Positions 7,446 to 10,988 of a stretch of 44,731 nt of DNA are shown piece after piece. The DNA comes from Lachnospiraceae bacterium C7 (GTDB taxonomy: Bacteria; Bacillota; Clostridia; Lachnospirales; Lachnospiraceae). The stretch spans positions 1 to 44,731 of the forward strand of contig FOPE01000027.1 of assembly GCA_900113385.1 (NCBI GenBank). Reading direction: 5' to 3'. Each line of letters begins with the position of its first letter. Positions within the stretch are counted from its first letter, which is position 1. The notes beneath the pieces are model-generated. The model made no database searches. It was not told where the DNA came from and was given only the letters and a program-made list of their open reading frames with translations. The position numbers and the translations under genes are program-made.

Positions 7446-7802
7446 ATGGCAAGAGTAAAAGGCGGTTTAGGCGCTAAAAAAAGACATAATAGAGTATTAA
7501 AATTAGCAAAAGGATACAGAGGCGCTAGATCTAAACAGTATAGAATAGCAAAACAGTCAGTTATGAGAGCCTTAACAAGTTCTTATGCTGGACGTAAACA
7601 GAGAAAGAGACAGTTCCGTCAATTATGGATCGCACGTATTAACGCTGCAGCAAGATTAAACGGATTATCATACAGCAAATTTATGTATGGTTTAAAATTA
7701 GCAAATATCGATCTTAACAGAAAAGTATTAGCTGAAATGGCTGTTTCTGATTCAGAAGGATTTGCTTCATTAGCAGAAATTGCAAAAGGAAAAATTGCTT
7801 AA
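7446..7802 (+). CDS. rplT: 50S ribosomal protein L20
   Basis: Large-subunit assembly protein of 118 aa, opening [19 protein letters not shown], with the conserved [10 protein letters not shown] and LWIARINAA blocks. In Firmicutes L20 also represses its own operon through the leader RNA, and this leader has the right architecture upstream of infC. A consensus ribosome binding site (AAGGAGG) lies 8-10 nt before the start. Last protein gene of the operon; no clear terminator directly follows, so transcription may continue into the structured region downstream. Confidence 0.97.
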
Positions 7803-8004
7803 TTAACTTTTATAAAGTTGATATAGATACACCGTAAGGTGCATAAAGCCACGGATAAAAAGTTTTGGATTGTTTTTATTATAGAAATTTCCAAGTTGAT
7901 TATGTTTTTTGAAAGAGTAGTAACGTAGGAAGTATGAAGTGAGTTTTTATACAGCGTCAGGAACTGGATAGAAATTATGAATTATGAACTAGGTAACTAC
8001 ACTT

Positions 8005-8034
8005 TTGAAAGACTAATCTAGAATTATTTATGTT
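8005..8034 (+). promoter_or_regulatory. Possible promoter for the stem-loop array
   Basis: TTGAAA (8005-8010) and TATGTT (8029-8034) are separated by 18 nt. Initiation would fall near 8041, at the base of the first stem. Matches are moderate and the spacer is slightly long, so this is a weak call. The alternative is readthrough from rplT. Confidence 0.3.
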
Positions 8035-8035
8035 T

Positions 8036-8436
8036 GTTTTATAATGCAACTCCGAGAGCATTATGGAATGAGAACGTATGCTTTCATAACTCCGATAGTG
8101 TGGCATACTATAAAGCAAAGCATAACTCCGAGAGTGTTTTGTTTTAATGACATGATGTAGTACAACTCCGAGAGTGCTACACATTGATATATAAGTTATA
8201 TATACCTGTTCCGAAAATGTTATATATAACCTTGGATGATCTGAAATTGAAGTGGGCTAAATCAAGCATATACTTGAATCCATATACTTGATTTAGATTA
8301 TGTAGATTAAAGACATTCATTATTGGAAATATAATAAGGATCCAATTTATTGTATTCAAATAATAAAAAAGAATCAAACAAAAGTATTCAAATAATAATA
8401 TAAAAGATTTAAACAAAAGTATTCAAATAAAAGTTT
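8036..8436 (+). ncRNA. Candidate structured RNA: tandem stem-loops with a shared 10-nt loop
   Basis: Four hairpins in a row carry the loop AACTCCGAGA, with one base changed in hairpin 2. Hairpin 1: 8041-8047 with 8058-8064, extendable to 8036/8069. Hairpin 2: outer stem 8076-8081 with 8103-8108, inner stem 8085-8087 with 8098-8100. Hairpin 3: 8111-8123 with 8134-8146, 13 pairs. Hairpin 4: 8156-8163 with 8174-8181. Loop starts are 40, 36 and 40 nt apart. A fifth hairpin (8195-8204 with 8221-8230) has the related loop core TTCCGAA. A sixth (8257-8266 with 8287-8296) is a 10-bp stem. The stem sequences differ between copies, yet all pair. The G-T pairs are allowed in plus-strand RNA but would be A-C mismatches in minus-strand RNA, so the plus strand is the likely transcript. 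A strong terminator closes the region. The part from 7803 to 8035 holds nothing I recognise. Function unknown. Confidence 0.6.
8353..8429. repeat. AT-rich direct repeats, three copies
   Basis: TATTCAAATA occurs at 8353, 8385 and 8420, and the last two are preceded by AAACAAAAG. Spacing is 32 and 35 nt. The copies lie between the stem-loop array and the terminator. They may be drifted tandem repeats or an unpaired spacer of the RNA. Confidence 0.6.
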
Positions 8437-8468
8437 AAAAGCTACGGATTAGCCCCGTAGCTTTTTTT
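8437..8468. terminator. Bidirectional intrinsic terminator
   Basis: AAAAGCTACGG at 8437-8447 pairs with CCGTAGCTTTT around 8455-8465, followed by a run of T on the plus strand. On the minus strand the stem is followed by TTTT. It therefore serves the rplT/array transcript and the convergent araC-type gene, whose last codons form one arm. Confidence 0.85.
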
Positions 8469-9279
8469 TATATTCCATGGGAGAAAGACCTTTGCGTTTA
8501 TGGAATGTTTTAGAAAAATAAAGACTATTGTCAAAGCCGATTGAATTGGCAATGGCAGTGAAAGTTAAATCTGTGTTTTCTATTAAATTACAAGCTTGTT
8601 TTATACGAAAATCAGTTAGATATTCTTTAGGCGAAACATTTAAAACAGTTTGAAATGTTCTAAATAAATGACTGCGACTTAATCCTACGTATGTTGCTAC
8701 GTCTTCAATTGTTATAGGGTATGAATAATTCTCAGAAATAAATTCAATAGCCTTTTGAACATAACTAACATTATTATTTGTGCATATTTTTTTTGAAGAA
8801 ATTTTTAAAAGCGAAGATAATAAAGTGTAAAGTTTACCAGTCATTGCAACAGCGCTTTCAAAGTTGTTTCCTCGTGAATCATAAATGCTTAAAATGTTTC
8901 GCTTGATTTCCTCGCCATTTTCAAGCTGCCTTATAAAAGGCGACTCCTTTGTGAAATCAGTGGATTGAAGAATTGTAGGCGCATCGCTTCCGGCAAAGCC
9001 AACCCAAGTGTATTCCCATGGAGCTGATGAATCAGATTTATAGGTTACTATACTGTTTGGAAAAACTAAAAAAGCATCTCCAGCAGATAAGGAGTATTCC
9101 TTACCATTTGCAATATATGTTCCTTTTCCGGAAATAATATAGTGAATAAGGTAGTGATCTCTAATTCCTGGTCCCCACTGGTAGTTTTGTTCACATTTTT
9201 GATAGCCAACATTATATACTGATAATGAAACAAGTTCCTTTTCGGAAACTTTGTATGAATTTTTGTAGTTTTTACCCAA
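8449..9279 (-). CDS. AraC-family transcriptional regulator with cupin sensor domain (MsmR-like)
   Basis: About 276 aa. The N-terminal half is an AraC-type cupin (HYIISGKGTYIANGKEYSL, then GDAFLVFPN), which binds an effector, usually a sugar. The C-terminal 100 residues hold the two helix-turn-helix motifs, with the signature around YVGLSRSHLFRTFQ and the second helix pair near SIGFDNSLYFSKTF. I chose a TTG start at 9279: GGGGAGG lies 7 nt upstream, and the resulting N-terminus (MGKNYKNSYKVSEKE) fits better than the hydrophobic 15-residue extension from the ATG at 9324. It diverges from galE, so control of galactose or other sugar genes is plausible but not shown. The last codons lie inside the shared terminator. 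Confidence 0.85.
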   Translation of the reverse strand: MGKNYKNSYKVSEKELVSLSVYNVGYQKCEQNYQWGPGIRDHYLIHYIISGKGTYIANGKEYSLSAGDAFLVFPNSIVTYKSDSSAPWEYTWVGFAGSDAPTILQSTDFTKESPFIRQLENGEEIKRNILSIYDSRGNNFESAVAMTGKLYTLLSSLLKISSKKICTNNNVSYVQKAIEFISENYSYPITIEDVATYVGLSRSHLFRTFQTVLNVSPKEYLTDFRIKQACNLIENTDLTFTAIANSIGFDNSLYFSKTFHKRKGLSPMEYKKKLRG

Positions 9280-9356
9280 AATTTTTCCTCCCCTAATAAA
9301 AAAATAGTTAAAATAATAATACATATACCTTTAAAATTGATAAGGCTATATGTGTA

Positions 9357-9385
9357 ATTATAAAATTTGAAACAAAAATATGCAA
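9357..9385 (-). promoter_or_regulatory. Promoter of the AraC-type gene
   Basis: On the minus strand TTGCAT (9380-9385) and TATAAT (9357-9362) are 17 nt apart. Initiation near 9350 leaves a leader of about 70 nt. The rest of the 348-nt gap to galE contains a 7-bp inverted repeat (about 9486-9506) and AT-rich sequence, but no gene. A weak plus-strand pair, TTGATT 9567-9572 and TAAATA 9590-9595, could serve galE. Confidence 0.65.
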
Positions 9386-9627
9386 CATTTTTACATATAT
9401 CGTGCACATTTTGGACTATACAAAACACAAGGCGTGATGTAAACTATAAAGTGTCGTAAGGACAAAGCGTTTTATTTACGTGAAGACTTTTAGTTTTATA
9501 AAAGTTTTGCAACAATTATAGAGAACAATAATTTATTGATGGCATTGCATTTATAGAAAATAAAAGTTGATTACTGATATGACGTATAATAAATATATAT
9601 ATTAGAATATAAAGGAGATATTTGATT

Positions 9628-10763: not shown

Positions 10764-10847
10764 CGTGGTTAAAACATTTTAAATGTTTAGTGCGTTTTAA
10801 TTTATTATTAGTTTATAGTAAAAATAAAATTACTATAAAAAGGGGGT

Positions 10848-10916: not shown

Positions 10917-10988
10917 CAGTTCGTACGGGAATCGAACCCGTGATTCCGCCTTGAGAGGGCGGCGTCTTAACCGCTTGACCAACGAACC
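10917..10988 (-). tRNA. tRNA-Glu, anticodon CTC
   Basis: Minus-strand cloverleaf of 72 nt. Acceptor GGTTCGT pairs with ACGAACT (G1-U72 wobble). The D arm contains GGTCAAGCGGTTAAGAC. The anticodon stem CCGCC/GGCGG encloses CTCTCAA, giving anticodon CTC for GAG codons. The T arm contains GGTTCGATTCC. The 3' CCA is not encoded, so it must be added afterwards. It is a single tRNA gene with its own promoter and terminator, away from any rRNA operon. Confidence 0.93.

Follow-up and report, generated by a model that had tools for sequence, protein, structure and literature searches.

A tandem array of hairpins with a nearly invariant loop in the putative rplT 3′ UTR of Lachnospiraceae bacterium C7

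In the genome of Lachnospiraceae bacterium C7, the gene for ribosomal protein L20 (rplT) is followed by a row of hairpins that carry nearly the same loop on stems of differing sequence. The question raised by this locus is whether the row is a functional RNA element or a passive family of DNA repeats and, if the former, what the repeated loop would contact. The locus was analysed within a window of 44,731 nucleotides, to which all coordinates below refer. An earlier note on this DNA, made from its letters alone, had described four of the hairpins.

Layout of the array and its place behind rplT

The row is composed of four hairpins, probably with a fifth (Table 1). The loop positions given in the earlier note, including the single change in hairpin 2, proved exact to the letter; the loop-to-loop steps are 40, 36, and 40 nt, within the range of 36–40 nt that it had stated, and the loops of hairpins 1–4 depart from one another in a single letter of 40. 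The stems were said to differ completely in sequence while pairing in each copy. Pairing is indeed found in every copy, but the difference is not complete: the 8-nt stem arms share 1–5 of 8 letters between copies on the 5′ side and 2–5 of 8 on the 3′ side, and the letters adjacent to the loop are partly common to the copies.

Table 1. Features of the rplT–terminator region, in window coordinates
Feature	Position	Strand	Description
rplT (ribosomal protein L20)	7446..7802	+	Upstream gene, identified by Pfam
Long 3′ UTR of infC-rpmI-rplT	7803..8436	+	Holds the array; presumed to be transcribed by read-through from rplT
Weak sigma-70-like promoter match	8005..8034	+	TTGAAA, 18, TATGTT; 9/12 matches; directly before hairpin 1
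Hairpin 1	8036..8069	+	Loop AACTCCGAGA at 8048-8057; minimum-energy fold of 8036-8181 gives 12 pairs, 15 when further wobbles are counted
Hairpin 2	8076..8108	+	Loop AACTCCGATA at 8088-8097; stem interrupted by a mismatch and a bulge
Hairpin 3	8111..8146	+	Loop AACTCCGAGA at 8124-8133; 13 pairs
Hairpin 4	8152..8184	+	Loop AACTCCGAGA at 8164-8173; 8 pairs, then 3 past a bulge
Hairpin 5, probable diverged member	8195..8230	+	10 pairs; 16-nt apical region with TTCCGAAAA, TCCGA at 8210-8214
Terminator-like hairpin	8437..8465	+ (both strands listed)	Found by terminator scan

In the minimum-energy fold of 8036-8181, every one of the four loops lies in a separate hairpin. In a strand-neutral alignment, the stem of hairpin 2 contains 11 pairs (9 Watson–Crick and 2 G-U), interrupted by a mismatch and gaps. 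The pair count of hairpin 3 agrees with the maximum of 13 bp claimed for it; its minimum-energy fold has a three-base bulge, and ACUC and GAGU are paired within the loop with CGA left open, this intra-loop pairing replacing the two innermost stem pairs. Hairpin 5, whose apical part contains UUCCGAAAA, is counted as a probable diverged member of the array, since it retains the core UCCGANA and its offset of 43 nt from hairpin 4 fits the spacing. A further hairpin is found 3′ of the array at 8257-8296, in which a 14-nt stretch is directly repeated almost exactly (CATATACTTGAATC / CATATACTTGATTT) and whose loop is without the UCCGA core, and an A-rich 35-nt tandem repeat of 2.4 copies occupies 8359..8441 (+) between the array and the terminator.

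According to Pfam, the locus has IF-3, L35, and L20, followed by an AraC-type regulator in convergent orientation and an NAD-dependent epimerase (gene at 9622). The placement of the array 3′ of rplT and 5′ of the terminator at 8437, as first described, was confirmed, and because it lies between the two, the array would be carried by the ribosomal-protein operon. Promoter matches comparable to the one preceding hairpin 1 are common in the region (18 in 7700-9600, against a mean of 11.0 in shuffles).

Pairing, strand, and folding energy

The array is real and non-random. On the plus strand of the window, 10-nt sites flanked by eight of eight pairs have a frequency of 0.0008; three of the four loops are such sites, hairpin 2 having 5 of 8 when no bulge is allowed. 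A scan for hairpin pairs (10-nt loops with at most two loop mismatches, and unbroken stems of at least 6) returned the array alone on the plus strand of the window and none on the minus strand, and gave a mean of 0.05 pairs per strand in 60 first-order Markov sequences of the window length. The 10-mer AACTCCGAGA occurs five times in the genome, three of them within the array, and its backward pattern four times.

When G-U and A-C were given equal score in a strand-neutral count, the five hairpins together had 51 Watson–Crick, 12 G-U, and 2 A-C pairs, a bias expected from pairing of a plus-strand RNA and not from a palindrome at the DNA level. Each of the five is also individually more stable on the plus than on the minus strand. 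The plus strand is thus the more likely one for the array to be read from, as the earlier note had judged from the G-U pairs. The folding energy of the region is moderate (z-score, −2.93 for 8036-8181; −2.39 on the plus and −1.10 on the minus strand for 8030-8240). In a sliding scan (200-nt windows with 40 shuffles each; 594 values, plus two for the closest relative, G443), the array region was not among the extremes, and the window at 8101 (8101-8300) gave z-scores of −2.07 on the plus and −2.83 on the minus strand, contrary to the plus-strand reading.

The same scan gave z-scores below −5, on one or both strands, at window starts 10651, 10801, 10951, 13951, 14101, 16351, 19951, and 36301, all eight exceeding the folding signal of the array; the windows at 10801 and 10951 overlap a tRNA at 10917-10988. 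Closer to the array, the upstream half of the UTR (7803-8035) folds well into a branched structure (z-score, −3.89), though sliding windows over the upstream UTR gave only −2.39 at 7801 and −0.67 at 7951.

Loops that are identical at 39 of 40 letters, on arms that share only 1–5 of 8 letters and yet pair, indicate that the loop and the pairing have been kept and the stem letters have not. Comparison of the copies within this one array of a single genome would therefore point to selection on the RNA, and the locus would offer a compact case in which copies within an array, instead of species, provide the evidence of kept pairing. A functionless origin of the row in a rapidly evolving spacer, through duplication or template switching at palindromes, appears quite unlikely. 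The occurrence of the array in one genome only of the samples searched, the 35-nt tandem repeat adjoining it, and the absence of the neighbouring AraC-type gene from the locus in the closest relative would all suit such an origin; unconstrained copies, however, are not expected to retain nearly all of their loop letters while the arms diverge, and palindrome repair should yield Watson–Crick pairs, not a 12:2 wobble bias towards one strand.

Possible partners of the loop and comparison with known RNAs

The locus most likely holds a regulatory RNA that is multivalent and young, within a long rplT 3′ UTR that is not common to relatives. For its mode of action, our tentative first choice is a lineage-specific riboregulator that base-pairs at several sites through its repeated identical loops. 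The array would be a plus-strand element in the 3′ UTR of the infC-rpmI-rplT mRNA, derived from one hairpin module that was duplicated in tandem and whose stems then drifted with pairing and loop letters kept. One RNA would then display four to five copies of a site with the core UCCGA, mostly AACUCCGAGA, in line with the earlier suggestion of several identical sites on one RNA, which the repetition of the loop across the copies bears out. An RNA derived from, or resident in, the 3′ UTR may thereby contact its partner at several sites simultaneously, in a mode likened to that of the SmelA075/SmelA099 and CcsR RNAs, and the loop half ACUCC could pair with sequences of the GGAGU type, for instance weak Shine-Dalgarno (SD) sites.

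Sites of this kind do exist: the genome has 132 matches to the pattern GGAGTTN{4,9}ATG, which allows a 6-nt pairing with AACUCC, and 69 to the backward control, an excess expected in any SD-using genome. The longer CGGAGTT before ATG is hardly enriched (22 sites, among them the opposite strand of the array itself, and 16 for the control); none of the nine sites examined out of the 22 starts a plausible gene, their frames having 1–55 codons and the longest lying within a long open frame. Outside the array, the full 10-nt loop complement has two sense occurrences, both of them within long reading frames, and this is no more than chance, because the backward pattern is found four times. Moreover, only 5–6 loop nucleotides match the SD complement, which leaves the conserved GAGA half unexplained. 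An anti-SD action with extended pairing was dropped on the counts of 22 against 16 and the lack of plausible starts among the nine sites. Loop–loop kissing was likewise set aside: a self-duplex around a C-C mismatch has an energy of −6.6 kcal/mol, and this reading is weakly backed at best, because 179 of 2000 shuffled loops pair equally well. The loop may also bear some resemblance to those of PyrR and ANTAR RNAs.

The design of repeated hairpins is already known. SmelA075 and SmelA099 of the Rhizobiales have three and four hairpins with CCUCCUCCC loops on more variable stems, and their family is presumed to block ribosome binding sites through an anti-Shine-Dalgarno loop, SmelA075 being suggested to be stress-induced and to occur in processed forms (PMC3927594). 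They follow the same design as the array, that is, one loop motif on variable stems, but occur in several copies per genome and are spread over the Rhizobiales, whereas the array is found at one locus of one genome in another bacterial group. Of their loop CCUCCUCCC and the AACUCCGAGA/AACUCCGAUA of the array, only CUCC is common, and because the motif differs, the array is not a member of this family and resembles it in design only. The loop motif of the CcsR RNAs is also CCUCCUCCC. In Rhodobacter sphaeroides, these four RNAs (CcsR1-4) originate in the 3′ UTR of the ccaF1 mRNA (PMC8625941); they share with the array the 3′ UTR position and the design, but not the loop. Listeria LhrC carries repeated CU-rich motifs whose pairing targets are AG-rich and close to ribosome binding sites; it consists of two stem-loops and a single-stranded joiner, whereas the array has one loop on different stems (PMC13350326).

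Instead of an RNA, each loop might bind one copy of an RNA-binding protein, the array soaking up copies as RsmZ does for RsmE. We regard this as a real but limited possibility. Conservation of the entire 10-nt loop, beyond its SD-like part, would be accounted for, and RsmZ likewise has a terminator and four stem-loops that share a single loop motif (PMC4005645). Against this stands the lack of a candidate protein: CsrA is encoded in the genome (one match; E-value, 2.9e-25), but the plus-strand loops of the array, in contrast to the RsmZ/CsrB type, are without GGA. The minus-strand loops have CGGA but are without A(N)GGA in all five, and the hairpins are less stable on that strand; a minus-strand CsrA sponge was accordingly dropped (A(N)GGA in 0 of 5 loops). 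Since its loop differs, the array is assigned to none of the SmelA, CcsR, and RsmZ groups.

Repeat length and the presence of a terminator are points of likeness to the antitoxin RNAs of type III toxin–antitoxin systems (ToxI and CptI). Such RNAs also consist of short repeats (PMC8860590, PMC4627078). This candidate was dropped, as no toxin gene lies downstream on the plus strand and the next gene is the convergent AraC-type regulator. The guanidine-II riboswitch has the loop ACGR and is located upstream of genes, in contrast to the AACUCCGAGA loop and downstream position of the array. It is formed by two stem-loops whose loops are thought to interact (mini-ykkC; PMC7544219). The loop of the array matches no known family. 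The earlier note, which did not recognise the class, was borne out as to the loop, for which no Rfam match was found, but the design itself had been described in the Rhizobiales (PMC3927594).

The position directly behind the L20 gene also suggests autoregulation by mimicry, in which the loop would copy an L20-bound piece of 23S rRNA; we find this hardly credible. The 8-mer-level match on which it draws, AACTCCGA, is present in 23S rRNA from other members of the genus; the C7 and G443 assemblies gave no 23S match. Some 8-mer common to that 23S, however, was found in 14% of shuffled loops, and the corresponding stretch of E. coli 23S rRNA, matched by eye, begins at 909, a position that we take to be distinct from the helix 40-41 junction. 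It is this junction that is named for the L20 C-terminal domain (PMC6962249), and the known L20 control sites are leaders 5′ of genes (PMC6097659, PMC10931766). No L20 leader was found in the window or at 20 rplT loci, and the array is situated behind the operon instead of ahead of it. Mimicry was dropped after the 23S comparison and the shuffled-loop control.

Occurrence in relatives and the rplT 3′ region across the genus

A check for an existing family, also proposed in the earlier note, returned only a tRNA for the whole window at the gathering score of Rfam 15; for 7700-8600, searched to an E-value of 10, the 12 matches were weak and all far under their gathering scores. The homologous arrays in related Clostridia for which the note had looked to a covariance model were not found by such a model in the genus, or by patterns in the genus, family, and order sets searched (each including C7, with one genome per species; these are samples, not whole families). 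The tandem-loop pattern matched only C7 and one other (G173) of the 397 genomes of the family sample, the locus of the latter being without a 6-pair stem, and only C7 of the 246 genomes of the order sample. A looser pattern matched 8 of the 62 genus genomes, and the 11 matches in the seven others had stems of 0–3 pairs. A single-hairpin covariance model gave four matches in C7 (29–37 bits); among the 61 other genus genomes, where filters were stricter and no more than 124 candidates were scored in each, 18 had matches at an E-value of 1 or less, and the best of these (24 bits, L297) was rejected since it lies within a long reading frame. No homologous array being found in any sample, an outcome that the earlier note had named as one that would speak against it, the claim of a selected RNA draws on the loop and pairing kept within this array of one genome.

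Outside these samples, a scan of wider genome contigs with the loose pattern yielded at least 120 matches, and only near-identical tandem repeats (L017 and L104) and single hairpins were among those listed. Viral sequences gave two matches in the strict scan, neither of them a hairpin pair, and at least 120 in the loose one; plasmid and phage records did not match the array pattern. In a DNA search of C7 and its closest relative, no listed match covered a loop, and the matches outside the array locus fell mostly in the A-rich terminal part of the UTR, apart from short ones with E-values of at least 0.1. No paper on the array was found in a literature search whose coverage excluded most subscription papers.

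The 3′ UTR that would hold the array is itself unusual in length. From the rplT stop to the terminator, C7 has 634 nt, whereas the distance is 79 nt or less in 26 of the 32 genomes measured. An rplT match was obtained in 52 of the 60 genus genomes drawn, and when 52 downstream regions (C7 included, G443 represented twice, and one region extending only 2 nt past the stop) were scanned for terminators under strict settings, 33 values were obtained, namely 26 at 79 nt or less, 219 nt for G443 (twice), 634 nt for C7, and 224, 318, 425, and 733 nt for the remaining four genomes, with no value in 19 regions. In those four, a terminator-like hairpin missed by the scan is present in the sequence at about 70 nt or less. 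Within the first 700 nt 3′ of rplT, a conserved-loop array was found in C7 only among 51 regions. G443, the closest relative by L20 (92%), has neither the array nor an AraC-type gene at the locus, and its 215-nt rplT 3′ UTR has a folding z-score of 0.75.

These data bear on the idea that the stems act in cis, setting the 3′-end processing or decay of the infC-rpmI-rplT mRNA with no partner in trans, which we consider unlikely. The location of the array between rplT and the terminator, and the good predicted fold of the preceding half of the UTR (7803-8035), agree with a cis element, but the UTR of the closest relative is without comparable structure. Barriers to decay, moreover, depend on stems and are not known to need a conserved 10-nt loop.

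For a riboregulator with repeated loops, occurrence in a single genome may indicate a young RNA, one that would help to show how such RNAs begin. If real, the design of repeated identical loops, known from anti-SD RNAs of Alphaproteobacteria and CsrA-type titrators, would have arisen separately elsewhere, built on a different loop and linked to the mRNA of a ribosomal protein. It is conceivable, though doubtful, that the duplicated UCCGA-loop hairpins represent a new lineage-specific class of multivalent RNA, carried on a ribosomal-protein mRNA in an amount tracking ribosome synthesis, with a protein or RNA partner outside the known families.

A different conserved loop was noticed in the rplT 3′ regions of the genus. 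The sequence GGACAACC, absent from both strands of the window, occurs within 110 nt past the rplT stop in 14 of the 51 genus 3′ regions, that of C7 being among the 51 (loci L267, L270, L271, L321, L323, L326, L328, L330, L331, L332, L338, L339, L340, and L341). In most cases it forms the loop of a terminator-like hairpin whose stems vary between species, and this hairpin may be a conserved-loop terminator of the infC operon, possibly a structured RNA by itself.
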